Of a stretch of 64,000 nt of DNA, positions 4,199 through 62,056 are shown piece by piece. Position 1 is the stretch's first letter, and each line of letters starts with the position of its first letter. Under the pieces are notes generated by a model. The model worked only from the letters and a program-made list of their open reading frames with translations, was not told the origin of the DNA and searched no databases. The stretch is from Enterococcus pallens ATCC BAA-351 (GTDB lineage Bacteria > Bacillota > Bacilli > Lactobacillales > Enterococcaceae): assembly GCF_000407485.1 (NCBI RefSeq), contig NZ_ASWD01000001.1, positions 682,001 to 746,000 on the forward strand. The letters are read 5' to 3'. Made by a program: the position numbers and the translations under genes.

Positions 4199-4213
4199 TA
4201 CGCTTCCTCCTAA

Positions 4214-4226
4214 TTTTCGTTCGTAA
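4214..4226. promoter_or_regulatory. putative DeoR operator, copy 1
   Basis: TTTTCGTTCGTAA lies between the -10 box and the start of the glycyl radical enzyme gene. The same 13-mer with one change (TTTTCGTACGTAA) lies at 5136-5148 in front of the activase. The position downstream of the promoter fits repression. Confidence 0.45.
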
Positions 4227-4249
4227 ACATCATAGTTTCTTTAGTAACT

Positions 4250-4279
4250 ATAATAGCACGCGTAAAGAAGAGCAGTCAA
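4250..4279 (-). promoter_or_regulatory. promoter of the glycyl radical enzyme gene
   Basis: On the minus strand TTGACT (4279-4274) and TATTAT (4255-4250) are separated by 18 bp, about 50 bp before the start codon. Together with the terminator at 4303-4332 it makes this gene independent of the upstream regulator gene. Confidence 0.65.
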
Positions 4280-4302
4280 CCGGATTTTCCTTTTTAACAA
4301 AC

Positions 4303-4332
4303 AAAAAAAATATTGCACACATGTGCAATATT
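4303..4332 (-). terminator. terminator of the DeoR-type regulator gene
   Basis: The stem TATTGCACA/TGTGCAATA directly abuts the stop codon and runs into eight T on the minus strand. Confidence 0.85.
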
Positions 4333-5074
4333 AAACGGTGGTTACTTCTATTTTATGATCGGTTAAAAACGTCAATGTCTCCTCTGGAATCTTGGAATCG
4401 GTGAATACCTTGCTGATTTCACTGAAGCCAAATTCAGAAACAACCCCATTTTGAGTAAATTTGCTGGAATCGGTTAATACAATCGTTTGATTCGCAGCGG
4501 TCGCCAGGGTTCTTGTGGTGTCGCAACGAGTGATATCACTACCTGTAAATCCCCGTTTTTTGTCAAAGCCATCAATTCCGATAAACAGCTTATCAACAAA
4601 AAATTCACTGATCACCTGCTTAACCAAGGGGCCAACATTGACTTGAGAATCCTTCTGATATTCACCGCCAATTAAAATGACCTTGACTGACTCCGCCTTG
4701 CGAACATAAGAAGCAATGAAGCAAGAATTAGTAATAATAGTAATATCGTTTCGATTGAAAGCCAACTCTTCGGCTAGCAGCGCACAGGTAGATCCGGATT
4801 CAATCATTACCACATCGCCATCGTTAACGATGGTGCTGGCTTCTAAGGCAATTTTTCGCTTAAGATCGTAGTTTTGTGCTAAACGAAAGTTGATGTCATC
4901 TGTATTATTTAATAGAGCATAGCCATGCTGGCGATGCAGCAGCCCTCTGGATTCAAGCTTGTCTAAATCTTTTCGAATGGTTACTTTGGAAACCTTCAGC
5001 AGCTCTGAAAGCTCATTCACTTCGATTTTTTTCTTTTGGCTGACAATCGAAAGTATTTCTTCTTCTCTAGACAT
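4331..5074 (-). CDS. DeoR-family transcriptional regulator
   Basis: This 247-residue protein has an N-terminal DeoR helix-turn-helix (residues about 5-55, VSKVTIRKDLDKLESRGLL). It is followed by a DeoRC sugar-phosphate sensor domain with GSTCALLAEEL, ITNS, GG, GIDG and TDSSKF. GGAGGGG lies 5 nt before ATG 5074. The gene lies between the glycyl radical enzyme and its activase, transcribed with the first and divergent from the second, so it probably represses both when a sugar phosphate is absent. The shared TTTTCGTWCGTAA sequence in both promoter regions supports this. The effector is not known. Confidence 0.85.
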   Translation of the reverse strand: MSREEEILSIVSQKKKIEVNELSELLKVSKVTIRKDLDKLESRGLLHRQHGYALLNNTDDINFRLAQNYDLKRKIALEASTIVNDGDVVMIESGSTCALLAEELAFNRNDITIITNSCFIASYVRKAESVKVILIGGEYQKDSQVNVGPLVKQVISEFFVDKLFIGIDGFDKKRGFTGSDITRCDTTRTLATAANQTIVLTDSSKFTQNGVVSEFGFSEISKVFTDSKIPEETLTFLTDHKIEVTTV

Positions 5075-5135
5075 CCAACCCCTCCTATTCCTTACCAGAT
5101 TAACACATTTTCTATTTTACAACAATCATAAATTA

Positions 5136-5148
5136 TTTTCGTACGTAA
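5136..5148. promoter_or_regulatory. putative DeoR operator, copy 2
   Basis: TTTTCGTACGTAA, the partner of 4214-4226, lies upstream of the activase. A related TTTACGTAAAC follows at 5158-5168 and covers the proposed -35 box, a good arrangement for repression. Confidence 0.45.
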
Positions 5149-5157
5149 CTAAAACTA

Positions 5158-5186
5158 TTTACGTAAACATAAAAATTTGATAAGAT
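5158..5186 (+). promoter_or_regulatory. probable promoter of the activase gene
   Basis: TTTACG (5158-5163) and TAAGAT (5181-5186) are 17 bp apart. The -35 lies inside the TTTACGTAAAC operator-like sequence. Confidence 0.45.
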
Positions 5187-5214
5187 GAACGTGATTAAGA
5201 AAGGAGTCTTCATC

Positions 5215-5991
5215 ATGATTGACCAAGCATGTATTTTCAATATCCAAAAATTTAGTATCCACGATGGCCCAGGAATTCGGACCGTAGTTTTCTTCAAGGG
5301 CTGTCCGTTGCGCTGCTACTGGTGCTCCAATCCTGAGTCCCAGGCTAGCGAGCCGGAAAAGATGTGGGATACTCAAAAGAAAGACTATACCACTGTGGGA
5401 GAATACAAAACCATGGATGAGATTATTGATGAGGTCATGAAGGACGAACCTTTTTACGATGAATCAGATGGCGGTGTGACTCTTTCCGGCGGAGAAGTTC
5501 TTTATCAGGCGGAATTTGCCACCGAATTATTACGGCGATTAAAGGAAAAAGGGATCCATACAGCTAGCGAAACTACTGGCTTTGCTAAACAAGAGGTGTT
5601 CGAGAAATACATCGAACAGGTGGATCTCTTGTATTTTGATGTGAAGCATCATGATGAGCTGCAGCACAAAAAAGGCACCAAAGCCTCTTTGGCTCCGATT
5701 TTGAATAATTTGGCCTTTGCTTTAAAGCACCACAGCAATTTGATCGTTCGCATTCCCGTTATTCCCAATTTTAACGATGGCTCAGAAAATGCGGCAGCCT
5801 TTGCTGACTTGTTTAATCAAATGGGGATTCAGCAGGTTGAGCTTTTGCCCTTCCATCAATTCGGCGAGAAAAAATATGCCTTTTTGGATCGCGACTATCA
5901 AATGCAGGACATTCCGCAGCTCCATACTGAAGATTTGACTTATTTTAAGGATATTCTTGAGCAACATGCTATCATTTGTGACGTTCACTAA
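5215..5991 (+). CDS. glycyl radical enzyme activating enzyme (radical SAM)
   Basis: This 258-residue radical SAM protein has the cluster motif C30-x3-C34-x2-C37 (GCPLRCYWC) and the glycyl-activase hallmarks SIHDGPGIRT and TLSGGE. It should make the Gly789 radical in the neighbouring enzyme. ATG 5215 has AAGGAG at 5201-5206; an earlier ATG at 5185 lacks a site and would overlap the promoter. Activases of eliminase-type enzymes usually carry an inserted ferredoxin domain with extra cysteines. Here residues 38-75 have no cysteines, so that domain is absent, as in pyruvate formate-lyase activase. Regulation is probably shared with the lyase through the DeoR protein. Confidence 0.9.
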   Translation: MIDQACIFNIQKFSIHDGPGIRTVVFFKGCPLRCYWCSNPESQASEPEKMWDTQKKDYTTVGEYKTMDEIIDEVMKDEPFYDESDGGVTLSGGEVLYQAEFATELLRRLKEKGIHTASETTGFAKQEVFEKYIEQVDLLYFDVKHHDELQHKKGTKASLAPILNNLAFALKHHSNLIVRIPVIPNFNDGSENAAAFADLFNQMGIQQVELLPFHQFGEKKYAFLDRDYQMQDIPQLHTEDLTYFKDILEQHAIICDVH

Positions 5992-6000
5992 TAAGCGGGG

Positions 6001-6033
6001 GTGAAGCAGGTTTCACGACTTGCTTCACTTTTT
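6001..6033 (+). terminator. terminator of the activase gene
   Basis: The stem GTGAAGCA (6001-6008) / TGCTTCAC (6021-6028) is followed by TTTTT, a few bases after the stop codon. Confidence 0.8.
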
Positions 6034-6121
6034 GTTGCTTCTTAAAAGGAATTAGTTCGTTCATTGTTCTTGGAAAATGATGATGCTCAGCCCATCTCTC
6101 TTTCTTATATTTACTTCCGCT

Positions 6122-6898
6122 TTATTCAAGAAATCTGATTCGATCTTTGACGGTTGGAATCCCGTTTATTACCCTTTGCCATTTTCCATCCTGATATCGT
6201 TCGTATTGCTTAAAGGCACAAGGCAGTCCCTTGGCTTGGACAATATCGCTGCTGTCCATCAGCTGAAAATGCAAATGCGGGCCAAAGGAATTTCCTGAGT
6301 GTCCGACATGTCCGATCAGTTGGCCTTTTTTGACCTGTTGACCAGCCACGACCTTCACCGAATCGGTTTGTAAGTGGCACAAGGCGGCATAAATATTTTC
6401 GGTTTGTTTGATAATTACATAATTTCCAGCAACCGCTCGGGCATCATCAACCGCTGGATCAAAATGATGGGCATTTTTATACGCATTTAACAGATCCGTA
6501 CGCAAATTAGTGTGGGTGCGTTCAGGATAATGATCTTCTGCTAAAACAACTTCGCCACTAAAGGGGGCATAAATTTCCTGTCCCCAGCAATAATAATCGC
6601 TGATGGGCAATCCGGAAATTAAATACTTAGGCAAGCTGCTGCGATAGGCCGGCCAGCCGCAACGCTTCCAATCTACTTGAATAAAATCATAGGCATAGCG
6701 TGTTCCCAAGCGATCCGTTCCATGACTAGGTATCTTGGTGCCGGGTGTATTTGGCGACTGCCATTCGCCTCGCAAAGGAAATTCGACAATAATCGGTTCG
6801 GGCATTTCAGCATTCTGCACAGGAGGTCCTCCTATCCTGATTTGACTAAGTAATACAACTGCCAACACAATTCCAGCCAATGCAATCTTCTTATTCAT
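6122..6898 (-). CDS. M23-family metallopeptidase-like membrane protein
   Basis: This 258-residue protein has an N-terminal hydrophobic anchor (residues 3-20, IALAGIVLAVVLL) and a peptidase M23 (LytM-like) fold. The metal ligands appear as His and Asp in HGTDRLGTRYAYD and the C-terminal GPHLHFQL. M23 enzymes cut peptidoglycan peptides at the cell surface. The inserted region around residues 80-160 is larger than in minimal LytM domains. ATG 6898 overlaps the end of the tetR gene, which points to translational coupling; an upstream in-frame TTG (6907) is possible. A two-gene operon with a TetR regulator is unusual for a cell-wall hydrolase. It could instead be a catalytically weak M23 homologue. 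Confidence 0.75.
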   Translation of the reverse strand: MNKKIALAGIVLAVVLLSQIRIGGPPVQNAEMPEPIIVEFPLRGEWQSPNTPGTKIPSHGTDRLGTRYAYDFIQVDWKRCGWPAYRSSLPKYLISGLPISDYYCWGQEIYAPFSGEVVLAEDHYPERTHTNLRTDLLNAYKNAHHFDPAVDDARAVAGNYVIIKQTENIYAALCHLQTDSVKVVAGQQVKKGQLIGHVGHSGNSFGPHLHFQLMDSSDIVQAKGLPCAFKQYERYQDGKWQRVINGIPTVKDRIRFLE

Positions 6899-7520
6899 CG
6901 GCTGCAACGTAAAATAGTTTTCGCAATTCCTCTAAATAATCCTCTAACACAGCAAGAAGCCCTGCCTCGTCTATATCTGTACGATTGGAGGTTTTTATTT
7001 TCTCCACAATCTGATTCGTAAATCCCTCATTCGTCCACAAAATAAATTGCAGCGCCTTTTCAAGATCCAACTCCTTGCGAAAATTCGTAGTGTCTAAATT
7101 AGCAAACAGCTGCTGCCGACAAGCTGCCTGTTTTTTCCCAGCCGCTACTCGTTGGTTGATTGCCTCCGATTTAGTTTCCGCCGACAATTTGTTAAAGTCC
7201 AGAATCCACGGATACTGCTTAATCAATTTCAGCTGCAATAGATATGACTGCTGCAAGCGAACAAAAATATCCCCCTGTGAAAAATCAAGTTGACTAAAAT
7301 ATTCCCGGTCCAGCAACTCCATAAAATAATCATACATCGCCAGAAAAAGTTCCTGCTTGCTCGTGACATAATGAAACATTAATGGCTTGGACATCTTAGC
7401 ACTTTTAGCTATTCGGTTAGTCGAAGCCTGATCATAGCCCTTCGTCACGAACTCCTCCAAGGCAGCATTCAGCAGCATATCGCGCCGTTTTGCTTCCAAC
7501 TCTAATAATTTTGTATCCAT
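6891..7520 (-). CDS. TetR-family transcriptional regulator
   Basis: This 209-residue protein has an N-terminal TetR helix-turn-helix (residues about 10-55: DMLLNAALEEFVTKGYDQAS, then AKSAKMSKPLMFHYV) and an all-helical ligand domain. ATG 7520 is chosen because GGAGGGG lies 6 nt upstream; an in-frame ATG at 7535 would place that site inside the gene. The stop overlaps the start of the M23 gene. Two copies of the palindrome ACCTATCAGGT lie in its promoter, so it very likely represses itself and the peptidase. The ligand is unknown. Confidence 0.88.
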   Translation of the reverse strand: MDTKLLELEAKRRDMLLNAALEEFVTKGYDQASTNRIAKSAKMSKPLMFHYVTSKQELFLAMYDYFMELLDREYFSQLDFSQGDIFVRLQQSYLLQLKLIKQYPWILDFNKLSAETKSEAINQRVAAGKKQAACRQQLFANLDTTNFRKELDLEKALQFILWTNEGFTNQIVEKIKTSNRTDIDEAGLLAVLEDYLEELRKLFYVAADE

Positions 7521-7534
7521 AAGCAGCCCCTCCA

Positions 7535-7584
7535 TTTACCTATCAGGTCAACACAAACATACACTTATTTACCTATCAGGTCAA
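7535..7584 (-). promoter_or_regulatory. tetR promoter with two identical operators
   Basis: The 17-mer TTTACCTATCAGGTCAA occurs twice without mismatch, at 7535-7551 and 7568-7584, 33 bp apart (about three helical turns). Each holds the palindrome ACCT-ATC-AGGT. On the minus strand TTGACC (7584-7579) and TATGTT (7561-7556) form a promoter with a 17-bp spacer, so one operator covers the -35 and the other the start region. Confidence 0.75.
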
Positions 7585-7641
7585 TAGTTGATTGTATGAA
7601 CGATATATAATAGAAGAAACTTTTTCATTTAGACAGATCGA

Positions 7642-7669
7642 AAGCCCAGAACGGGAAAGTCCTGGGCTT
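7642..7669 (-). terminator. terminator of PTS module A
   Basis: The stem AAGCCCAG (7642-7649) / CTGGGCTT (7662-7669) lies just after the IIC stop on the minus strand. The T run is weak. Confidence 0.6.
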
Positions 7670-7682
7670 CTGTTCCATTCTA

Positions 7683-8945
7683 TTAAGACAATAAACTCAA
7701 CAAATAATAAACAATCCATGAATACCACTGGGTTCCCACAGCTAATGAAGTAATTTCGGTTGCTTCACCCGGAATTTGGTAACCAATATCAGCAGCTAAA
7801 CCAGTCATAATCGGTGCAGCGATACCTGAAATATACAAAGTAATCGTCGCAATAAAGATGCCGGTAATTACGCCGCGAAACAGATTGCCCTTTGAAGGTA
7901 AGATAGCGAAAATCATGTAAAATGGCAATGCTGTCAAATCAGCCAACGGCAGGGTTTTGTTTCCTGGAAGGATGAACGCCAATACCAAGGTGATAGGAAT
8001 CATCAATAAGCCTAGAGATAAAACAAAGGGGTGCCCAATACCTAATGCAGCGTCCAAACCAATGTAAATTTCTCGGCCCTCGAAGCGTTTTTCCATGAAT
8101 TCCTGAGCTGCTTCGGAAATGACAATCAAGCCATCCATCAACAATGAGACCATCCGCGGAATCAGGACTAATGATGCTGCAATGGAAACAGCCGTAGTCA
8201 GGATATCCGACAAAGGCATCCCAGCAACTGCTGCTAATAAGCCGCCGATCACCAAGCCCATCATCATTGGTTCGCCAAAAATTCCTAGTCTCTTCTGAAC
8301 ATTTTCAGTCGTCCAATTAATCTTGTTAATCCCAGGAATACGGTCTAACAGCCAATTCATTGGATACCCTAACACTGCCCAGCCCGTTGTCTGCAGTGCC
8401 GGCAGTGAAATTCCTTCCAAACCTAAAACATCCGACACATCCTTTTGGGTCATATCTGCTAATTTGAAGATAATGGCCATATTGATCACCGCACTTGCTA
8501 CGGCTAAAATCATACTTCCAGTCGTTAGATACAATGCACTAGCAATAAACAGCGGCTGCCAATAATTCCAGATATCGACATCCATTGTTTTGGTTAAATT
8601 AAACATTAACATCAATACATTGGTTACAATGATGGCGATAAAAACAAACGGAACCACTGGCGTTCCCCAAGCAATCGAAGACCCGATTCCCCAGCCGATA
8701 TCTGTCGCTGTCAAACTAAAGTTATACCGTTCAACCAACGCTTTGGTTACTGGTGTAATGGCATTCATCATGACACCCGCCATGACATTAATTCCGATGA
8801 ACCCGATTCCGACAGTCAACCCCGCTTTAAACGATACTGACAGCTTTCTGCCAAAGATGACACCCAAAATAGTAATAATAATGGGCATCATCACACTCAC
8901 ACCTAGATCAATGATGTATTTGAAAAAGTCAAAAACAACTGACAT
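7683..8945 (-). CDS. PTS galactitol-type IIC permease (module A)
   Basis: This 420-residue integral membrane protein belongs to the galactitol/SgcC IIC family. It starts with the typical VMMPIIITILGVIFGRK and contains about ten hydrophobic segments with PFV, DIWNYW and GLDAALGIGHPF stretches. It forms the membrane channel for the sugar or polyol taken up by module A and works with the IIB at 8964 and the IIA at 11444. It is the last gene of the operon, followed by a terminator. The family includes galactitol and pentitol carriers, so a polyol is likely given the dehydrogenase in the operon; the exact substrate is not readable. Confidence 0.88.
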   Translation of the reverse strand: MSVVFDFFKYIIDLGVSVMMPIIITILGVIFGRKLSVSFKAGLTVGIGFIGINVMAGVMMNAITPVTKALVERYNFSLTATDIGWGIGSSIAWGTPVVPFVFIAIIVTNVLMLMFNLTKTMDVDIWNYWQPLFIASALYLTTGSMILAVASAVINMAIIFKLADMTQKDVSDVLGLEGISLPALQTTGWAVLGYPMNWLLDRIPGINKINWTTENVQKRLGIFGEPMMMGLVIGGLLAAVAGMPLSDILTTAVSIAASLVLIPRMVSLLMDGLIVISEAAQEFMEKRFEGREIYIGLDAALGIGHPFVLSLGLLMIPITLVLAFILPGNKTLPLADLTALPFYMIFAILPSKGNLFRGVITGIFIATITLYISGIAAPIMTGLAADIGYQIPGEATEITSLAVGTQWYSWIVYYLLSLLS

Positions 8946-8963
8946 ATTTTCTCCTCCTATATC

Positions 8964-9257
8964 CTAAAACCCCAGAATCTCACGAATTTCCTGCTTCGTT
9001 TTATCTTTGCCAATTCCGGTTAAAAATGAACGGCCCAACACTACCGGCACATCGCCTAAATCACTTGAAATCGTCGTCGAGCTGATCACCACATCAGGCT
9101 TTTTGTTGGCTACCTTAGAAGGAATATCTGAGACAATGTATTGACTGATATCGTACTGAACATTGTTTTCATCTAAAAACTCCGACACCTTTTTCACGAT
9201 AACCGTCGATGTAGCAATTCCGGTACCGCAGCAGACATAAATTCTTTTTCGCTTCAT
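8964..9257 (-). CDS. PTS galactitol-type IIB (module A)
   Basis: This 97-residue cytoplasmic IIB protein has the phosphocysteine loop VCCGTGIATST near its N-terminus (Cys9/Cys10). It takes phosphate from the IIA and gives it to the substrate bound in IIC. The gene lies 18 bp before the IIC gene, and the length is normal for a free GatB-like IIB. Confidence 0.88.
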   Translation of the reverse strand: MKRKRIYVCCGTGIATSTVIVKKVSEFLDENNVQYDISQYIVSDIPSKVANKKPDVVISSTTISSDLGDVPVVLGRSFLTGIGKDKTKQEIREILGF

Positions 9258-9272
9258 TTTTATCTTCCTTTC

Positions 9273-10349
9273 CTACACCTCTTCAGGGAAAAACATAATT
9301 TTGCCAAAGTTATCTTCTGGCTTTTTATGAGTGACTGTATCAAAAATTTCTGGTCCCTCTGACAGCTTTAAGCGATGAGTAACCATCGATTTTAATTCCA
9401 ATTGACCATTTTCTAACAGCGACACAATCGTCTGCCATTCTTTACCTGGAAAAGGCGCCGACACACAGCTCCAAGCCCCCCAGACCTTCAGCTCGCTGCG
9501 AACAATTTTTTCAAAATAGAAGCGTTCAATATTGATATCGGCATATGGTATTCCCATAAAGACAACCCCGCCGCCTTTTTTGGCATAAGCAAACACTTGA
9601 GCTGAAGTAATCGGCGAGCCTGCTGACTCGACGACAATATCGGCCAGCAGTCCATCGGTATAAGCCGCAATTGTCTCCAACGTATCTTCCTTCAACGAGT
9701 TAATCGTGTGAGAAGCTCCCGCCGCTAGTGCCATTTTCAAGGCATCCTCAGCAATATCCACCGCAATAATTTTAGTGGCACCAAACAGCTTGGCAAATTT
9801 AATCGACAACAAACCGATATTGCCGCAGCCCACCACCACGACCGTATCTCCAGCCGTTAAATTTGTGTGATAATATCCGTGAACGACCACGGCAGAAGGT
9901 TCGATCATCGCCGCTGATTCATAGTCCACTGCATCAGGAATCGGCACGCAATTTTTTTCTGGCAGACGAATGTATTCAGCGTAGGCGCCGCCATGACGAG
10001 CACCGATCACCGTTAAGTTTTCACAGCGGGCAAACTCAGACTTTTTACAGTAGTAGCATTCTTCTTCAACATCCAAATCGGCACAGGTGAAGCAAGGGGC
10101 TCCAGCCACCCGGTCGCCTACCGCTAGATGCTTTACCTCTTCACCAATTTCCACAACCTCGCCAGAAAATTCATGTCCCCAAACCATGCCTGCAACATAT
10201 GGACCTAATTTTTTGTAACGTGATAAATCGGACCCACAGATTCCGACCGCTTTTACTTTGATCAGGACATCAGTTGGCTTTTCCAAGCGGGGTTTTTCCG
10301 CTTCTTCATACCGTAAATCTTGCTTTCCATACAGCTTTAATGCTCTCAT
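9273..10349 (-). CDS. zinc-dependent polyol-phosphate dehydrogenase
   Basis: This 358-residue medium-chain dehydrogenase has catalytic zinc ligands Cys38 (GICGSD), His59 and Glu60 (GHEF), a structural-zinc cysteine cluster (Cys86, 89, 98, 101, 109) and a Rossmann GCGNIG motif. It resembles galactitol-1-P 5-dehydrogenase (GatD) and the arabitol-phosphate dehydrogenase described in Enterococcus avium. In this operon it probably oxidises the polyol phosphate delivered by the PTS. If the substrate is a pentitol phosphate, the product would be ribulose- or xylulose-5-P and would feed the epimerase encoded next to it. This is inference from context. Confidence 0.82.
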   Translation of the reverse strand: MRALKLYGKQDLRYEEAEKPRLEKPTDVLIKVKAVGICGSDLSRYKKLGPYVAGMVWGHEFSGEVVEIGEEVKHLAVGDRVAGAPCFTCADLDVEEECYYCKKSEFARCENLTVIGARHGGAYAEYIRLPEKNCVPIPDAVDYESAAMIEPSAVVVHGYYHTNLTAGDTVVVVGCGNIGLLSIKFAKLFGATKIIAVDIAEDALKMALAAGASHTINSLKEDTLETIAAYTDGLLADIVVESAGSPITSAQVFAYAKKGGGVVFMGIPYADINIERFYFEKIVRSELKVWGAWSCVSAPFPGKEWQTIVSLLENGQLELKSMVTHRLKLSEGPEIFDTVTHKKPEDNFGKIMFFPEEV

Positions 10350-10361
10350 TGCTTTCTCTCC

Positions 10362-11012
10362 TTAACGTAACGCATTTTCCAAAAGTTGGAATTTTTTTGT
10401 TGAATCGCCTGAAAACAGGTAGGAGCCTACGACAAACCAGTTGGCCCCTGCTTGTTGGCAGGTTTTGATATTTTCTGCATTGACTCCGCCATCGACTTGG
10501 ATATTGATGGGCCGCTCACCAATCAATTTCTTCATTGCTTGAATCTTTTGATAAATCGGCGGATACAGCTGCTGTCCCCCTAAGCCGGGATTCACCGTCA
10601 TCAACAATACATAATCAATCTCATCCAAAACCAGCTTGATACTTTCGACTGGTGTACCAGGATTCAACACGACCCCAGCCTTGGCACCCAACTGTTTAAT
10701 CAATTGGATTCCCCGCAGCAAGTGCACCGTCGCTTCTTGATGAATACTGATATATTCGACACCAGCCTCCACCAATTGCGGAATAAATTTCTCCGGATTT
10801 TCAACCATCATGTGTACATCAAATTGAAACGGCAGCAGCTTTTTTAAGTCCGCCACTTGAGTAGGACCAAAAGCAATATTCGGCACAAAGCTGCCATCCA
10901 TCATATCTACATGCAGGATTTCGATCTCTAAATCCTTTAACGTCATCACATCACGTTGTAAATTTCCAATATCAGCCCCAAATAACGAAGGCATGATGCT
11001 ATTTTTAACCAA
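10362..11012 (-). CDS. ribulose-phosphate 3-epimerase family protein
   Basis: This 216-residue TIM-barrel protein has the family signatures HVDMMDGSFVPN, FDVHMMV, NPGLGGQ and QVDGGV. It should interconvert ribulose-5-P and xylulose-5-P (or a related ketose phosphate such as allulose-6-P). A second, more AlsE-like member is encoded in module C at 21727. The gene overlaps the 3' end of the upstream small membrane protein gene by 8 bp, so the two are probably translated together. Confidence 0.85.
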   Translation of the reverse strand: MVKNSIMPSLFGADIGNLQRDVMTLKDLEIEILHVDMMDGSFVPNIAFGPTQVADLKKLLPFQFDVHMMVENPEKFIPQLVEAGVEYISIHQEATVHLLRGIQLIKQLGAKAGVVLNPGTPVESIKLVLDEIDYVLLMTVNPGLGGQQLYPPIYQKIQAMKKLIGERPINIQVDGGVNAENIKTCQQAGANWFVVGSYLFSGDSTKKFQLLENALR

Positions 11013-54619: not shown

Positions 54620-54659
54620 CAAAAAACTTTCTTCCTGAAAAACCTGCTAGGAAGAAAGT
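54620..54659 (-). terminator. terminator of the mannose-type PTS operon
   Basis: A perfect 11-bp stem ACTTTCTTCCT (54626-54636) / AGGAAGAAAGT (54649-54659) is followed by a T run on the minus strand. Confidence 0.9.
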
Positions 54660-54667
54660 CTGTTTAA

Positions 54668-55606
54668 CTACTCTAAATACTCAACTATCAACTCTGTTGC
54701 CCGCTGAACGGTATTCATTTCCGCTTCTTGCGAACGCGAGGCAATATGAGCGGTTGGTGTAAAGTTAGGCAATTGGAAAAGGTCCTTGCGCCATCCTTCC
54801 AGTATTGGAGGTTCTTCCAAAAAAACGTCGGATGCAGCAGCAGTAATGCTATTTACTTTTAAAGCCTGGTACAGAGCCTGTTCATCTACAATTCCGCCGC
54901 GCGAGGTATTCACTAATATACAGCTGTCTTTCATTTTGTCGAAAGCGGCCTTATCGATTAATTGAGCGGTTGTTTCCGTATATGGTACATGAATCGTAAT
55001 AAAATCACTGGTTTTCAGCAAGGTATTCAAATCCTCTTGCTGAACTTGGTACTGATCCAGATCAGTCTTTGGAATCTGATATAGATCGTAAACACTTGCC
55101 TGCATACCTAAACCGACAGCTCGCTGAGCGACAGCCTTGCCAATTGCACCAAAACCAATGATTCCCAGCTTTTTCCCGTACAGCTCGACACCAGTTGGCT
55201 TCGCCCAACTGCCTTCTTTTACAGCTTGAGCGTTCGTTGCAATCTGGCGTGCACTGCTAAACAGCAAACCGATCGTGAACTCAGCCACAGCATTGGTATT
55301 GGTTCCTATGCAGCGTCCCACCTGGATTTTCCGCTCCTCACAAACATTCAGATCAATATTATCAGTGCCAACACCAAACTTGACTACAGCTTCTAAATGG
55401 GAACATTTTTCTAAAAAAGCAGCATCCATTTGATCAACACCCACAATAATTCCCGCAGCATCTCGGCTGTGTTTAGCGAAGACTTCCGGTGTGAACGGTT
55501 TGCCAGTGTCATTTAGTACTACCTGAAACCCTTGTTTTTCCAAATATTCTTTTTGCTTTTGTCCGTAAGCTGCAAAACCACGAGGAGTAATCACTATTTT
55601 TTTCAT
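54668..55606 (-). CDS. D-2-hydroxyacid dehydrogenase (PGDH-like)
   Basis: This 312-residue NAD-dependent dehydrogenase has the Rossmann motif GIIGFGAIGKAVAQR and the catalytic triad Arg in VNTSRGG, Glu in LEEPP and His in TAHIASRS. The family reduces 2-oxo acids to D-2-hydroxy acids or the reverse. ATG 55606 is spaced best from TAGGATG; an ATG at 55615 is also possible. It is the last gene of the PTS operon, 10 bp after the aldolase. It may act on a 2-keto acid made in the pathway or on pyruvate from the aldolase. Confidence 0.85.
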   Translation of the reverse strand: MKKIVITPRGFAAYGQKQKEYLEKQGFQVVLNDTGKPFTPEVFAKHSRDAAGIIVGVDQMDAAFLEKCSHLEAVVKFGVGTDNIDLNVCEERKIQVGRCIGTNTNAVAEFTIGLLFSSARQIATNAQAVKEGSWAKPTGVELYGKKLGIIGFGAIGKAVAQRAVGLGMQASVYDLYQIPKTDLDQYQVQQEDLNTLLKTSDFITIHVPYTETTAQLIDKAAFDKMKDSCILVNTSRGGIVDEQALYQALKVNSITAAASDVFLEEPPILEGWRKDLFQLPNFTPTAHIASRSQEAEMNTVQRATELIVEYLE

Positions 55607-55616
55607 GCTGCTCATC

Positions 55617-56243
55617 CTATCTACTGGCTTGTGCGATTGCACAAAGCTGCCTAGCATTTTCAGTAATTTCTTCACTAGTTCCTTTAGTTAATAAACCACC
55701 TATCCCTACACAATCCACGCCGTTTTTATACCATTGATCCAAGTTGTCTATGGTAACACCACCTGAAGCTAAAATCGCTACTTGCGGACAAGGAACCTTG
55801 ATGACCTTTGCCAGCTCTGGTCCATAGAAATTAGAGATTGGGAACGCTTTAATGAAGGCAGCCCCTTGTTTTAAGGCTTCCAGCATTTCAGTATATGAAG
55901 TACAACCAGGTGCGTAGGGAATTTGATAAAGATTGCACATCTGCTGTACTTCAGAATTAAAGGTTGGCGCTATAATGAAATCTGCTCCGCTCAAAATAGC
56001 TAGTCGTGCGGTTACACCTTCTAAAACGGTGCCCGCACCAATCAGCAGCTGCGTACCATATTTTTTCTTCAAAGCTTGGATGACCTCTCCAGCATTGGCA
56101 TTGGTATAACTAATTTCCAATACGTTTACGCCACCCTCCAGACAGCCCTGAGCAATTTCGATTCCCCGTTCAATTGTTTCTACCCGTACTACAGCCATTA
56201 TGCCTGTTTTTTTAATTGCTGTAATGATTTTTTCTTTTTCCAT
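55617..56243 (-). CDS. KDPG/KHG-type aldolase (Eda family)
   Basis: This 208-residue class I aldolase has the Eda motifs VVRVETIERGIEIAQ, the active-site Glu in LEISYTN, GAGTVL, and the Schiff-base Lys in AAFIKAFP. These enzymes split 2-keto-3-deoxy-6-phosphogluconate or 2-keto-4-hydroxyglutarate, releasing pyruvate. In this operon it implies that the sugar is turned into a 2-keto-3-deoxy acid phosphate, although no dehydratase or ammonia-lyase is encoded in the operon. Confidence 0.9.
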   Translation of the reverse strand: MEKEKIITAIKKTGIMAVVRVETIERGIEIAQGCLEGGVNVLEISYTNANAGEVIQALKKKYGTQLLIGAGTVLEGVTARLAILSGADFIIAPTFNSEVQQMCNLYQIPYAPGCTSYTEMLEALKQGAAFIKAFPISNFYGPELAKVIKVPCPQVAILASGGVTIDNLDQWYKNGVDCVGIGGLLTKGTSEEITENARQLCAIAQASR

Positions 56244-56248
56244 CGTAT

Positions 56249-57013
56249 TTATCTCCTCATTTCTATCTCTTTTGTTGTAATTAATTCCTGTTGCTCCAGC
56301 AAAAGTCCTTGTAGGTCAGCTTCTAAATGAGTCCCCCCAGTAAAATTATCAATCAAATAATCCCCAATCAGTACAGGATGACAATAGATTTCAGCGACAG
56401 TCTTCTCCTCCAAACTGTCAGCATTCTTACGGTACGTAGCAATACTGCTAGTATAAGGAACAGTCTGAAGCTGCGTCTGATTGAACCGATGCTGCCAACG
56501 TCGGATATAAACATTTCGCAATAAATTGCCAGTATTGAAGCTGGCTCCCAATCCCCGCATCGTTTTAAACCCATACTTTTCCAGCAAGGGTAGTAAGGCC
56601 TGCAATACTGAAAAATCGTAAAACGCACAATGATGAGAATCAATATTGTACAAAGTGAAGCCAGCCGCTCTATATTTTCTAATCTGGGCCTCCAGCTCCT
56701 CTGTTAACTCCTCTTGAAAAAGGCGAAACCATGCAGTCCACAAAGGAGGTTGATAACGAAAGGAATCGTAGTAGCAGTAATGCTTTAACTTTTTGATTTT
56801 GGCAGATAAAGGGGTACCCTCAAAAAGATTAATGTGCAAGCCCACCTTATCCATAAAACCGTCTTCTTTAGCAATGGCCACTGCCTCATCAAAATAATTT
56901 GAGTTGGTCACTACCGAAGTTTGGGTACAAATCCCTTTTTCCATCGCCAAACGAATCCCTAAGTTGGCCTCATGACTCAACCCAAAGTCATCGGCATTTA
57001 CGATTATTCTCAT
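56249..57013 (-). CDS. ChbG/YdjC-family carbohydrate deacetylase
   Basis: This 254-residue protein has the family's metal motifs IVNADDFGLS at the N-terminus (Asp pair) and HINLFEGTPL and NIDSHHCAFYDF further on. ChbG removes an acetyl group from N-acetylated sugars such as phosphorylated chito-oligosaccharides. ATG 57013 is chosen because GAGGG lies 6 nt upstream. It is coded between the PTS IID and the Eda-type aldolase, suggesting an N-acetylated substrate. Confidence 0.85.
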   Translation of the reverse strand: MRIIVNADDFGLSHEANLGIRLAMEKGICTQTSVVTNSNYFDEAVAIAKEDGFMDKVGLHINLFEGTPLSAKIKKLKHYCYYDSFRYQPPLWTAWFRLFQEELTEELEAQIRKYRAAGFTLYNIDSHHCAFYDFSVLQALLPLLEKYGFKTMRGLGASFNTGNLLRNVYIRRWQHRFNQTQLQTVPYTSSIATYRKNADSLEEKTVAEIYCHPVLIGDYLIDNFTGGTHLEADLQGLLLEQQELITTKEIEMRR

Positions 57014-57026
57014 CTTCATCCCTCAT

Positions 57027-57851
57027 TTAAAAGAAACCGATCAAGGTGCCAATTGCTCCAATCAAAATCAACACCAGCAAGATGATATTCACATTCATTT
57101 TCTTCTTTAATAAGAAAATCGTCAGCAAGGTAATCGACAACGGCAGCAGACCTTTAAAAATACTGTCCAAAATATCGGTTTGGACATTCAAAACTCCAGT
57201 ACTCATCTCAACTTCCAAACTAGATGACAGCGTGACATAAGAGGCGGTTAATCCCCCCAGTACCGTCGCTCCAACAACTGTCGCTTTTTCTGTGACTTTA
57301 TCCAAAAGACCGCTGCTGATAATTTTACCGATTCCTTCTCGACCTAAATAGTAGCCTTTGGTATAGGAAAGATAGCCTAGCCCAAAAAGCACAATTGCAA
57401 TGGTCAGCAGGTAAAAAATCGGTCCTAGGAAATTTCCTTCCTTAGCCATGCCGAGAAAAATTCCCAGAGCAATCGGTGAAAGTGTGCCCTGCCAAATGGT
57501 GTCGCCGATTCCGGCTAACGGCCCCATCAAACCAGTTTTAATATTCGAAATCATTTCTGGATCAATTTCTTCACCTTTAGCCCGTTGTTCTTCTAAAGCC
57601 AAAACAATCCCTAAAATACTGCCACCAACATTAGGCTCGGTATTGAAAAATTCCATGTGTCGCTTCAAGGCTTCCTTTAGGCGCTCCGAGTCCTTGCCAT
57701 ACATTTTTTCCAAACTAGGGGCTAGCGCATGGACGACCCCAGATGCCTGCATCCGTTCATAGTTATAGGTCGAGTGACTGAAAAAAGTCCAGATCAAGTA
57801 AGATTTAATAATATCTTTTTTATTGAGTAAACGTACTGCTTCTTGTTCCAT
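57027..57851 (-). CDS. PTS mannose-type IID
   Basis: This 274-residue IID component has the typical MQASGVVHALAPSLEKMY and FFNTEPNVGG segments and the central GLMGPLAGIGDTIWQGTL, with membrane helices at the C-terminus. With IIC it forms the membrane complex of a mannose-family PTS. The order IIA-IIB-IIC-IID is complete in this operon. Confidence 0.93.
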   Translation of the reverse strand: MEQEAVRLLNKKDIIKSYLIWTFFSHSTYNYERMQASGVVHALAPSLEKMYGKDSERLKEALKRHMEFFNTEPNVGGSILGIVLALEEQRAKGEEIDPEMISNIKTGLMGPLAGIGDTIWQGTLSPIALGIFLGMAKEGNFLGPIFYLLTIAIVLFGLGYLSYTKGYYLGREGIGKIISSGLLDKVTEKATVVGATVLGGLTASYVTLSSSLEVEMSTGVLNVQTDILDSIFKGLLPLSITLLTIFLLKKKMNVNIILLVLILIGAIGTLIGFF

Positions 57852-57862
57852 TTTTTCTCCCC

Positions 57863-58627
57863 CTAATTCATCGCCATGCGATCATTTTTTTGTAAAAAGG
57901 CAATAATCACTGCAATCATTCCGATGACTAATAATGGCAGTTCTAAATACATTACTAAAATAAAGCCTAGCAACAAGTAAAGATAAGCCATTGATCCTGC
58001 ATTTGATAAAATAGCTTTAAAGTTCATAGCAATCCCTAGTGCTGGCAGGATAGTTCCTACTGTGCTTAAAATGTTGATGATTGGTGTCCCCTCCAAGCTG
58101 TTTAACATGTTCGTAATGACTGAGGCACCACTGAAGACAGCAATTGCTACAGGTATGGTATAAATAATTCCTTTAAACAGTTGAGATGGAATAATATTGT
58201 AGAGCATGATTTTCTTAATATCTCCCGTTTCCACCACGCTATCCATCCGGTGAATAATAAAAATATCGCCAGTCATATAAAGCATCCACAAAAAGTTCCC
58301 TAAAAGTGAAATCGGTACAGCCAATGTTACAGCAACCTCGGGCGTTGTGTTGGAAAGGATAGCCAGCGCAGTACCCACAGTTCCAGCCAACCCTTCATCC
58401 ATCGTTTGTGCACCGCCAGCAGTAATTTGCGCCAAGTAAGTCGCATTAATCGCTGCTCCGACAATACACCCTTTAACAGGATCGCCTAAAATAAGTCCCA
58501 CCATAATCCCCGAAATCAGAGGGCGTTTTAACGCCCAGCTCATATTGACTGTCAACCATGGCGTCCCATTAGCACCCAGATAATACACTAACCCAATTAA
58601 GACCGCTTGTAGAATTGAAATTTCCAT
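57863..58627 (-). CDS. PTS mannose-type IIC
   Basis: This 254-residue integral membrane protein of the mannose/sorbose IIC family has eight or so hydrophobic segments and the conserved NATYLAQITAGGAQTMDEGL stretch. It lies 1 bp after the IIB gene and 11 bp before IID. Confidence 0.92.
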   Translation of the reverse strand: MEISILQAVLIGLVYYLGANGTPWLTVNMSWALKRPLISGIMVGLILGDPVKGCIVGAAINATYLAQITAGGAQTMDEGLAGTVGTALAILSNTTPEVAVTLAVPISLLGNFLWMLYMTGDIFIIHRMDSVVETGDIKKIMLYNIIPSQLFKGIIYTIPVAIAVFSGASVITNMLNSLEGTPIINILSTVGTILPALGIAMNFKAILSNAGSMAYLYLLLGFILVMYLELPLLVIGMIAVIIAFLQKNDRMAMN

Positions 58628-58628
58628 T

Positions 58629-59108
58629 TTATCCCTCTCCTTTAATTATTTTTCCTAGGCTAACCTTTTCCGTATTTGGAACAACTTGGATAAACACCTC
58701 CACCTGTTCGATCAGCTTACGGAAAATTCCGCGTTCTTCCTCGCTACAGGAAATATTTTTATAGAGTTGAGAGCGATCCTGATTAGAGCCCATCCCCCCT
58801 AAGTTAATGGCTGGAATCGCTACTCCTGCTTCCAGCAGCTGCTGATAAACCGCTGGTCCTTTAGCTAAAATAATGATTTTCTTTTCATCACCATTGTTTA
58901 AATAAGTGGTCGCATCAGCAACAGTTAAAACAGTTGCCTGCATTTTAGGCGGAACAGCACCGGTAATCACCATTTTAAGAAAGTCATCCTTGGCTACCGC
59001 ATCATCCACAATCACAATTTCGTTGGCTCCAGTGTGCTGAACCCAGGCAGTCATCACCTGACCATGAATCAGGCGGTCATCAATTCTCGCTAATACAATT
59101 GTTTGCAT
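58629..59108 (-). CDS. PTS mannose-type IIB
   Basis: This 159-residue IIB has the phosphohistidine in RIDDRLIHGQVMTAW (His15). It is the cytoplasmic phosphate carrier between IIA and the IIC/IID complex. The length is that of a free sorbose-type IIB. Confidence 0.93.
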   Translation of the reverse strand: MQTIVLARIDDRLIHGQVMTAWVQHTGANEIVIVDDAVAKDDFLKMVITGAVPPKMQATVLTVADATTYLNNGDEKKIIILAKGPAVYQQLLEAGVAIPAINLGGMGSNQDRSQLYKNISCSEEERGIFRKLIEQVEVFIQVVPNTEKVSLGKIIKGEG

Positions 59109-59123
59109 CGTTTCTCCTCTTTT

Positions 59124-59510
59124 CTATTGAAACATCAAAGTTGTAATTCCATCTTTTCCGATATTTACTAAGTAATCGGTTAATTCCTTAAGCGTCAGTT
59201 TTTCTCGTTTAAAGAGTGCTTCAATTACCAGCGGCAGGTTCACTCCTGTAATGCAGGTAATGTCCTTATCCCGATTTTCGCTAATTGTCTGTGCTACTGC
59301 ATTGTAAGGACTTGCTCCTAATAAATCAGTAAAATAAAGTACATTTCCTTCTATAGAATGTTTTGCTACGTTTTGTTGAAATTCATCGAAGCTGTCACCA
59401 GCTTTCAAGCAGACACTGTATAGATTTGTCTGTGGTCCAACGATTAGTTCTACTGCATCTAAAAAACCCTCTGCTAATTGGCCATGTGTTGTCACAACCA
59501 GTGTAATCAT
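59124..59510 (-). CDS. PTS mannose-type IIA
   Basis: This 128-residue IIA has the phosphohistidine in VVTTHGQLAEG (His9) and the motif FTDLLGASPYN. It is the first gene of the seven-gene operon. The promoter upstream is of the sigma-70 type with a cre-like site, not the -24/-12 type that usually goes with LevR activators. Confidence 0.92.
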   Translation of the reverse strand: MITLVVTTHGQLAEGFLDAVELIVGPQTNLYSVCLKAGDSFDEFQQNVAKHSIEGNVLYFTDLLGASPYNAVAQTISENRDKDITCITGVNLPLVIEALFKREKLTLKELTDYLVNIGKDGITTLMFQ

Positions 59511-59529: not shown

Positions 59530-59577
59530 GATAAGCGCTTCCAACATCATCATATATGCTGTCAAAGATTTTAGCAA
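59530..59577 (-). promoter_or_regulatory. promoter and cre-like site of the mannose-type PTS operon
   Basis: Minus-strand TTGCTA (59577-59572) and TATGAT (59554-59549) are 17 bp apart. GATAAGCGCTTCCA (59530-59543; minus TGGAAGCGCTTATC, 2 mismatches to the cre consensus) lies just downstream, where CcpA would block transcription. Confidence 0.6.
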
Positions 59578-59584
59578 AACCATC

Positions 59585-59693
59585 AATGTTACACCTAGCT
59601 TTAAATGTGTCACACAAATAAATATGGTTAAACAAAGGACAAACTCGGTGATAGGACCCTTTCTGTGTTATCTATTTTATAATGTGTAACATT
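59585..59693. promoter_or_regulatory. candidate operators between the PTS operon and the LevR-like gene
   Basis: AATGTTACAC (59585-59594) and GTGTAACATT (59684-59693) are perfect inverted copies 89 bp apart, each next to one of the two divergent promoters. The palindrome TGTGTCACACA (59606-59616) lies between them. They are the best candidates for binding by the divergently encoded regulator. Confidence 0.5.
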
Positions 59694-59719
59694 AACTGGT
59701 GTCTGATTTTTAATACGTG

Positions 59720-59725
59720 TATAAT
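59720..59725 (+). promoter_or_regulatory. -10 box of the LevR-like regulator gene
   Basis: A perfect TATAAT lies 55 bp before the start codon. No good -35 is seen at the proper distance, so an activator or a weak promoter is likely. Confidence 0.45.
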
Positions 59726-59779
59726 AAAATTTGAAAGAAGCACGTAAAAAATTTGAATTTTTGACGTTAGGAGATCGTG

Positions 59780-62056
59780 ATGACCAATAAACAAAAAATT
59801 CTACAGTTGCTGGAAAAAGAATGCCAACGTTATATTGATTTAACTGCTTTTACCTTCGCCAATTGTCATGCCAGCTATCTCGCAAATGAACTGTTTCTCG
59901 ATCGATCCAATGTCTCACGTATCTTAAATGATCTGCATCGCGAGAAACAATTGATTAAGCTAAAAGGCAAACCAGCTTATTATTTTTCTCGCAAAGTGTT
60001 AGAGGCCGCATTTCCTTTTGCAACATTTCCTGAAGCGTTTTCTTCCAGGGAGGAAATGCAAACCTTGCTGCAGTTTTCCTCTACCTCAAGAGAAAACACT
60101 TTACTGAAAAACTTCCATTTAATCGGTAGTGAAAAAGGCGGCTCCCTGCATCCCTTGGTCCATCAAATACTACCCTTGTTCTATCTGCCAAAACAAACCC
60201 TTCAGGTAATTGTTCTGCAAGGAAATTTTGGTACTGGTAAAAAGCTTTTTCTACGGCGGTTGATTGATTTAGGACGGCTGCTGCACTATTTCCCTGAGAA
60301 TCCTGAAGTATTCTACGTAGATGGTCAATTGCTGCAAGAACATCTTTTTGATTATCTGGAGAAATTTCACCAGCAAAAAAACCAAATTTTAGTGGTAGCT
60401 ACCAATGATGCACCGCAAAAAAGCTTAGCTTTAATCAATAATCTTCATTATCACTATTTAAATCAGCAGGAGGAGCTCTTACTGGTGATCTTGGCGAATG
60501 AACAAGTCGACACTGCTGCCTGGAAAGATATTACTCCTTTTGTGCTGCAATTTACCGATATTCGTAATCGTTCCACCAAAGAAGTACTGCAGATTGCACA
60601 AGTCATTTTGCTCAATGAGGCTCAGCGTTTAAAACGAACCCTGCGGATACCTAAAACAGTGCTGCAAGTGATTCTCGCTCAAGCTCAAAACCTGCATCAG
60701 CTAGAATTGCTGCTGCAACATGCTGTCGCCAATAGCCTGATGTCCGTTCGCAACCATGAGGGTGCCTTTCTTTATCTGGAACAGCCTGCTTTTACTAGTA
60801 GTCAGTTGCCACATTTAGAAGAAGTTCCTGAAATAATGACTATTAGACCTGAGGATACGATGGACTCACTGGCTGATTGTTTTGTCGCCAAAAAAGAAGA
60901 TCAGCAAACTCATTCTGCTTTGCTAGCTTATCTGCTTTTCCAGTATAGTCAAAGAACCGATCAGCATGCCTATCTGACCAAAGAATTTTTAACAGAGAAA
61001 TTACTCTCCTCAGTGCACACGATTTTAACCCGCAGCCTGTTTTCACAGGACCCAATTTTGGTGGACAATCTGCAAGAACTGATTTTACAAATTTTTATGA
61101 GGGAAATTACTGAACCAGCAGACAAGGCGGCGGAAAATTATCCAGACAGCCGCTTGCTGCCGTTGCAAAATAAACTGGAACAGCAGGCTCGCCTATTGCC
61201 GTATTCCTTAACAACGGTTCAACAAGCATTGCTCAGACAAACCTTGGCAGATGCTTATCAACTGGTTGCATCGATTGATATCCCAATCGTTGTTGTTTCT
61301 CAATATCATTTATTAGCTCAGCTTTATGTAAATACCTTTAATCAAGCCGAACACAATCGGCGCTGCTTCTATTTTCCTGTCAGCCAAAGTCGGCCTACCG
61401 AGAACAGTGCCAAGAAAAATCATCGTTTGTATCAGTTTGCCTATGAAATAAATCGGGGCCAGGGCGTTTTACTTTTAACCGATCAAACCAGCTACAAAGC
61501 TGTGATGGAGCATTTCTTCTTAAAAACCAAAGTAATTACTTATTGTTTAACGCTAGACTCCTTTGCTCTGCTGGATGATTGTATACATGCTCTGAAAAGC
61601 AGCAGTTCCAGTCTAATTCCGCTGATTCCCAATCTATTAGAATTAGCAAAAACAACTGAACAAGAAATTCAAGAATCAGACCTGACTAAACGCGATCGTG
61701 TGACCAAGCTATTCACGAAAATGAGTACCCTTTTCCCCCAGGTGGACGTGTATGAAACCAACGATGCCCTTTATCGCTGGCTGTTGGAAGTAAATAAGGA
61801 ACTTAATTTGGAAATCACACCTTCTTTCATACTAGAATTCCGTTTCGTGGGCAATGCACTTTTTCAAAGCAAAAAGAACAAACAGCCATTGTTCATCCTG
61901 ACTGATGAAGAAAAAAACACGTTGCAGTCGTTGATGCTTGCCTTAGAAAAAGCCGCAAGCTATTTACCAAAGACACTGCCCGCGTTTTCCACTGACGAGC
62001 TGGCTCCTTTTGCTCAATGCCTGCAAAAGCACCAGGATTTTCAAAAACTCCGTTAA
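59780..62056 (+). CDS. LevR-related PTS regulator with degenerate AAA+ domain
   Basis: This 758-residue protein has the N-terminal helix-turn-helix of the LevR/DgaR group (LANELFLDRSNVSRILNDLH, then KLKGKPAYYF). Next comes a region like their AAA+ ATPase with a Walker A-like GNFGTGKK (148-155). No convincing Walker B (QILVVATND instead of a DE pair) and no GAFTGA loop for sigma-54 contact can be seen. PRD-like segments follow (about 400-460 and 650-740) around a IIA-like domain whose phosphohistidine loop is changed (VVVSQYHLLAQ). ATG 59780 is 6 nt after GGAG. It probably controls the divergent PTS operon, but by a sigma-54-independent mechanism. Confidence 0.72.
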   Translation: MTNKQKILQLLEKECQRYIDLTAFTFANCHASYLANELFLDRSNVSRILNDLHREKQLIKLKGKPAYYFSRKVLEAAFPFATFPEAFSSREEMQTLLQFSSTSRENTLLKNFHLIGSEKGGSLHPLVHQILPLFYLPKQTLQVIVLQGNFGTGKKLFLRRLIDLGRLLHYFPENPEVFYVDGQLLQEHLFDYLEKFHQQKNQILVVATNDAPQKSLALINNLHYHYLNQQEELLLVILANEQVDTAAWKDITPFVLQFTDIRNRSTKEVLQIAQVILLNEAQRLKRTLRIPKTVLQVILAQAQNLHQLELLLQHAVANSLMSVRNHEGAFLYLEQPAFTSSQLPHLEEVPEIMTIRPEDTMDSLADCFVAKKEDQQTHSALLAYLLFQYSQRTDQHAYLTKEFLTEKLLSSVHTILTRSLFSQDPILVDNLQELILQIFMREITEPADKAAENYPDSRLLPLQNKLEQQARLLPYSLTTVQQALLRQTLADAYQLVASIDIPIVVVSQYHLLAQLYVNTFNQAEHNRRCFYFPVSQSRPTENSAKKNHRLYQFAYEINRGQGVLLLTDQTSYKAVMEHFFLKTKVITYCLTLDSFALLDDCIHALKSSSSSLIPLIPNLLELAKTTEQEIQESDLTKRDRVTKLFTKMSTLFPQVDVYETNDALYRWLLEVNKELNLEITPSFILEFRFVGNALFQSKKNKQPLFILTDEEKNTLQSLMLALEKAASYLPKTLPAFSTDELAPFAQCLQKHQDFQKLR

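Follow-up and report, generated by a model that had tools for sequence, protein, structure and literature searches.

A conserved phosphotransferase operon of Enterococcus pallens and distant Bacillota, predicted to degrade an acetylated sugar acid

The 64,000 nt stretch of DNA analysed here (the window) comes from Enterococcus pallens ATCC BAA-351 (assembly GCF_000407485.1, contig NZ_ASWD01000001.1, positions 682,001 to 746,000). At 54668-59510 it carries seven open reading frames (ORFs), all on the minus strand and spaced 1 to 15 nt apart, which encode a mannose-type phosphotransferase system (PTS), a ChbG-family deacetylase, an Eda-type aldolase and a D-2-hydroxyacid dehydrogenase (DH). Each product scores far above its Pfam cut-off (Table 1), confirming the gene set named in an earlier reading of the letters (the first-pass annotation). 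A regulator gene starts 266 bp upstream of the EIIA gene in divergent orientation. These genes form a real, conserved operon for which no description was found in the open-access literature, as judged by titles and the start of abstracts among the papers listed, and to that extent the first-pass claim that no described pathway has this gene set still stands.

Table 1. Features of the operon and its flanks (window coordinates).
Feature	Position	Strand	Evidence
PTS EIIA, mannose family	59124..59510	-	EIIA-man PF03610, 81 bits
PTS EIIB, sorbose/mannose family	58629..59108	-	PTSIIB_sorb PF03830, 154 bits
PTS EIIC	57863..58627	-	EII-Sor PF03609, 198 bits; 72-81% identity in three other carriers
PTS EIID	57027..57851	-	EIID-AGA PF03613, 314 bits; 72-81% identity in three other carriers
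ChbG/YdjC-family carbohydrate deacetylase	56249..57019	-	YdjC PF04794, 120 bits; Foldseek top matches EF3048 and ChbG; conserved residues
Eda-type KDPG/KHG aldolase	55617..56243	-	PF01081, 110 bits; NF005119, 223.5 vs cut-off 238 bits
D-2-hydroxyacid dehydrogenase (DH), 312 aa from probable ATG 55606	54668..55606	-	2-Hacid_dh_C PF02826, 184 bits; start from homologues
Divergent regulator, 759 aa, LevR/DagR offshoot by sequence, without canonical Walker A or GAFTGA	59777..62056	+	NF047795, 37.5 bits over residues 3-160; no Pfam match; motif check
Two TACAC boxes (59717-59721, 59684-59688), 33 bp apart, candidate operator	59684..59721	-	Motif picked by eye
Third TACAC box, strand opposite to the other two	59590..59594	+	
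Catabolite responsive element (cre)-like site, putative	59530..59543	+	12/14 vs consensus
Terminator-like 11-bp stem and T-rich tail	54626..54659	-	3' of last gene

The DH gene probably starts at ATG 55606 and not at GTG 55675, the start drawn by the ORF finder, because its homologues begin there; from the ATG it does not overlap the aldolase gene, while from the GTG it does. The three enzymes keep the residues that we take to be catalytic in their families: R20, E43 and K132 of the aldolase are invariant in an alignment of 11 rows, R238, E267 and H289 of the DH in one of 8 rows, and D10, D11, H62, H129, H130 and H214 of the deacetylase in one of 4 rows. An Asp that follows the GxGxxG motif of the DH suggests NAD as its cofactor.

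An alignment scan of named genomes with the DH yielded 113 confirmed relatives, and the analysis kept the best 80 loci; part of these end early at contig edges, and four (L173, L188, L196 and L216) matched none of the eight proteins in the ORF scan. In three of the 80 loci the identical eight genes, regulator included, occur in identical order with nothing added: Ca. Anaerostipes excrementavium (L138), Anaerostipes hominis (L143) and Catenisphaera adipataccumulans (L144). Such recurrence in other genomes goes beyond chance, and since the set is whole in three other species it looks like a complete unit and not a fragment. The search of other genomes called for in the first-pass annotation thus found the set entire. 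Identity to the window is highest for EIIC and EIID (72-81% each), followed by the aldolase (62-73%), EIIB (59-63%), ChbG (50-55%), the DH (52-54%), EIIA (44-48%) and the regulator (25-31%). The high identity of EIIC and EIID means that the four carriers probably take up the same substrate. No dehydratase or ammonia-lyase gene lies in the four full operons, in agreement with the first-pass remark that the lyase is missing, or in a related operon from the same genus (L113, genome G017).

The deacetylase belongs to the ChbG/YdjC family by its family match and its conserved metal and catalytic residues, which bears out the earlier assignment. Against the NCBIfam model for chitin disaccharide deacetylase it reaches 94 of 227 bits, below the cut-off. 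ChbG proteins of the window type are rare. With the window protein as query, the only match among 105 family genomes (E 1e-20) and among 398 phylum genomes (E 1e-25) was E. pallens itself; at E 1e-15, 38 of 295 order genomes matched, E. pallens included, and outside E. pallens the best E value in the order was 2.5e-19, with 27-37% identity among the matches listed. A profile built from the four rows (E 1e-40) found 6 of 397 Lachnospiraceae genomes, namely A. hominis and five weaker matches; the latter have other neighbours, with no PTS gene like that of the window in the stretches read. The 23 plasmid records with a ChbG protein each show <60% identity, and a single-sequence pattern search of genome contigs gave no confirmed relative.

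That the genes stay together in distant bacteria points to a complete food-breakdown route for a sugar acid, and the favoured guess for its substrate is a sugar acid carrying an acetyl group. The mannose-family PTS would import and phosphorylate the acid, ChbG would take off the acetyl group, the DH would oxidise the hydroxyl at C2 and so create the 2-keto group, and the Eda-type aldolase would cleave the C3-C4 bond, giving pyruvate or hydroxypyruvate and triose-phosphate. If the DH sets the 2-keto group, then neither a dehydratase nor an ammonia-lyase is needed. We give a probability of roughly 40% to the reading that the operon, common to distant Bacillota, is a complete catabolic unit for such an acid, with activity and substrate predicted from sequence.

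The placing of the DH ahead of the aldolase draws on the relatives of these two enzymes. Among family genomes, an Eda match at 1e-25 occurs in 83 of 103 and a DH match at 1e-40 in 12 of 103. The two genes are also adjacent in L137 and L139-L142, in large clusters with other PTS genes (that of L141 includes, by Pfam, an iron-type alcohol dehydrogenase, a class II aldolase and a HAD hydrolase), and in L168, where the contig ends before any transporter. In the DH tree the window, the rows of L137, L139-L142 and L168 and the three other full operons form a group of 10 rows (support 99/94), and in the Eda tree the same rows plus L113 form one of 11 rows (support 98/97). As the trees join the pair rows while the ChbG-bearing operons form no clade of their own, the Eda-DH pair makes up the stable core, with which transporter and ChbG were combined. 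A further locus (L114) has an aldolase 64% identical to that of the window beside a D-amino-acid transaminase (NCBIfam TIGR01121, 309 vs cut-off 277 bits) and an alanine racemase (311 vs 168 bits). The partner of the aldolase is thus a D-2-hydroxyacid oxidoreductase in one case and a D-amino-acid transaminase in the other, and either enzyme can turn a D-configured acid into the 2-keto acid that an Eda-type aldolase requires; from this we infer that the DH works upstream of Eda. The L114 genes (3284-11004) belong to a mannose-type PTS operon in which genes for an alcohol dehydrogenase and a class II aldolase were also read by eye; its content resembles that of a pathway for a D-amino sugar acid. 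Members of the same Eda clade are also found together with ascorbate-type PTS, SIS and DapA genes, and the aldolase alone therefore cannot name the substrate.

The DH could instead be a redox balancer that turns pyruvate into D-lactate, with ChbG acting on some other acetylated sugar. The models for VanH and D-lactate dehydrogenase do match the DH, but far below their cut-offs (best 102 of 540 bits), and three loci (L124-L126) hold the same aldolase with no DH in the stretch shown, so that disposal of pyruvate does not demand a DH; this explanation is very unlikely.

Salmonella uses D-glucosaminate through dgaABCDEF and its regulator DgaR, a system like that of the window in its mannose-family PTS, its aldolase and a regulator related to LevR/DagR. 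The window operon differs in that it lacks DgaE, has a PF01081 aldolase and not a DgaF aldolase (PF07071/NF047796), adds ChbG and the DH, and has no sigma-54 promoter. The aldolase models performed as expected on a positive control, the DgaF gene of a second E. pallens cluster (L133), which matches PF07071 and exceeds the NF047796 cut-off. Two DgaE-family genes of E. pallens lie in clusters other than the window operon, on contigs C3 (L132) and C6 (L133); one cluster has a mannose PTS and a full LevR regulator, the other different transport-like genes.

These genes bear on a route from N-acetylglucosaminate, in which ChbG would yield glucosaminate-6-phosphate, to be converted by a DgaE ammonia-lyase from another locus into the 2-keto-3-deoxy acid that Eda then cleaves. 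ChbG-family enzymes act on N-acetyl sugars, and the two E. pallens genes exceed the TIGR01437 cut-off (578 and 566 vs 385 bits). However, the C6 gene has its own DgaF adjoining and falls below the narrower DgaE cut-off (NF047797, 366 of 600 bits), a DgaF-like gene was read by eye next to the C3 gene, and the DH would be left without a role. No DgaE-family gene reaches the cut-off in the three other carrier genomes, whose completeness was not established (best 25.6-27.6 vs 385 bits). The N-acetylglucosaminate route is accordingly quite improbable, and glucosaminate via DgaE was rejected as a general route. The first-pass analogy with the glucosaminate pathway does not hold, given the aldolase family, the distribution of DgaE and a regulator that by sequence is not a working LevR-type sigma-54 activator. 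The N-acetylated sugar acid put forward there as a candidate substrate may nevertheless be right.

An operon without lyase or dehydratase supplies neither known path to a 2-keto-3-deoxy acid. One of the two, that through DgaE, was not found in the three other carriers; for the other, Edd was sought in E. pallens only and was not found, the single ILVD_EDD gene lying in an apparent ilv cluster (gene names by eye). An Entner-Doudoroff route via Edd in this species was rejected on that ground. The same observation tells against a 2-ketogluconate-like route, in which the PTS would deliver 2-keto-6-phosphogluconate, the DH would reduce it to 6-phosphogluconate and Eda would serve in an Entner-Doudoroff branch. 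KguD of Pseudomonas catalyses just this reduction, the DH family fits, and older literature describes enterococci that use ketogluconate, but ChbG would be left unexplained; we regard the scheme as quite unlikely.

A further possibility is that Eda cuts a 2-keto acid that retains its C3 hydroxyl, releasing hydroxypyruvate and triose-phosphate, and that the DH reduces the hydroxypyruvate to D-glycerate. The best model matches of the DH are to phosphoglycerate dehydrogenase and glyoxylate/hydroxypyruvate reductase, though far below the cut-offs, and two loci with the Eda-DH pair (L137 and L141) hold a gene read by eye as a glycerate kinase. Family similarity leaves the specificity of the DH unfixed, the operon has no glycerate kinase, and we know of no documented case of a KDPG-type aldolase making such a cut, all of which render this route rather doubtful.

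Two other sets of enterococcal operons resemble that of the window. In L113 the order is IIB-IIC-IID-IIA-Eda-2HADH (2-hydroxyacid dehydrogenase; IIB by eye), and the divergent regulator is of the window type, aligning over its full length (23% identity); the operon differs in the position of IIA and in its DH. Seven Enterococcaceae operons (L106-L112; E. florum, E. phoeniculicola and others) share Eda (53-62% identity), the DH (46-49%) and a mannose-type PTS with the window, but their PTS is of another branch (IIC 31-32%), they lack ChbG, and they add a DapA-type aldolase, a PucR-type helix-turn-helix (HTH) protein and a SIS isomerase; these extra proteins were found by profile scan in L106 and read by eye in the remaining six operons, of which L108 has its SIS gene in a different place. 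The combination in L106-L112 of two pyruvate-type aldolases (Eda and DapA-like), a DH, a mannose PTS and an isomerase of the KdsD/GutQ-like SIS kind hints at a further orphan pathway for a sugar acid, at a guess one of eight carbons. A second operon type, in E. pallens itself (L069, 7715-15218 on C3) and in L119, combines a DH and a mannose PTS with a distant Eda (31% and 30%), genes like those for fructose-6-phosphate aldolase and triose-phosphate isomerase by eye, and an offshoot regulator. The E. pallens genome (5.44 Mb, 13 contigs) has 49 EIIA-man matches, many within regulator-sized frames, a large mannose-PTS repertoire. A ChbG deacetylase beside a PTS is also known from chb/cel-type operons; that of the window is distinguished by its mannose-type PTS and the absence of a glycosidase. 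In E. raffinosus (H2), the one neighbourhood read among the plasmid records, a 30%-identical relative lies beside a PTS EIIC gene and an annotated phospho-glucosidase gene.

Several observations weigh against a route for an acetylated sugar acid. The operons with ChbG form no single clade in either the DH or the Eda tree, and L113 has no ChbG at all, its DH being 30-34% identical and outside the DH clade of the window. The window DH sits on a long branch (0.93 vs a median of 0.19), so that its specificity may have drifted. The DH may have a different role, since L106-L112 pair it with a DapA-type aldolase and a SIS isomerase. Were the acetyl group carried by an amine at C2, the DH would be barred from that position, and a deamination step would be missing.

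DgaR is described in a review as a LevR-like activator of dgaABCDEF that works with sigma-54 (PMC4987338), and MptR of E. faecalis is presented as an activator of the same kind (PMC8262876); the ammonia-lyase is described in PMC9529869. The regulator of the window matches the DagR model in its N-terminal HTH region and does not reach the whole-protein cut-off of 1400. Its structural model (mean predicted local distance difference test score 72, predicted template modelling score 0.43) gives weak AAA+ matches in Foldseek, and the domain layout is best read as a sketch. None of seven offshoot regulators has a canonical Walker A (GxxxxGK[ST]) or GAFTGA motif, a GxxGTGKK being kept in four; in the chosen LevR controls (n=5), Walker A is present in all five and GAFTGA or GSFTGA in four. 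Before six offshoot operons the best -24/-12 match covers 7-8 of 11 positions, on which a sigma-54 promoter was rejected for the window operon, and before all five chosen control operons it covers 10-11 of 11. The regulator thus matches the LevR type as to family, through its HTH region, but not as to canonical Walker A, GAFTGA or promoter, and the protein is, by its motifs, a LevR/DagR offshoot. As for PRD and EIIA domains with a phosphorylatable His, the window regulator has no Pfam match and no His is invariant among five regulators, but the offshoot regulator of L069 gives weak PRD and EIIA-man matches. A defence role for the regulator was rejected, as PADLOC gave no match.

The regulator probably acts via the TACAC boxes, without sigma-54. 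The four full operons together hold 12 copies of TACAC, where shuffles average 2.3 and none of 500 reached 12, a significance that is overstated as the motif was picked by eye before the test. Same-strand pairs at 11, 22 or 33 bp are found in all four and also in L069 and L119; across five of those six regions, 0-11 of 2000 shuffles gave a pair. No such pair occurs in L113, and none is visible in L075 or L072. The boxes are thus a lead to the operator. Six offshoot regulator genes, those of the window, L138 (2492-4837), L143 (2474-4813), L144 (2508-4808), L113 (10200-12539) and L069 (12819-15218), are each divergent from an operon without a sigma-54 promoter, with TACAC pairs at multiples of 11 bp in all except L113. 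That these operons represent a PTS-fed class in Bacillota free of dehydratase and lyase, in which deacetylation and C2 oxidation would precede Eda cleavage of a 2-keto acid that has not passed through a 3-deoxy form, under a LevR-derived, sigma-54-free regulator bound to TACAC boxes on one face of the DNA, is unlikely.

The cassette is common to two Anaerostipes species, an erysipelotrich and an Enterococcus. Its regulator would be a natural case of a sigma-54 activator turned into something else, and its substrate, once found, would extend the known degradation routes and give ChbG a function beyond chitin sugars.

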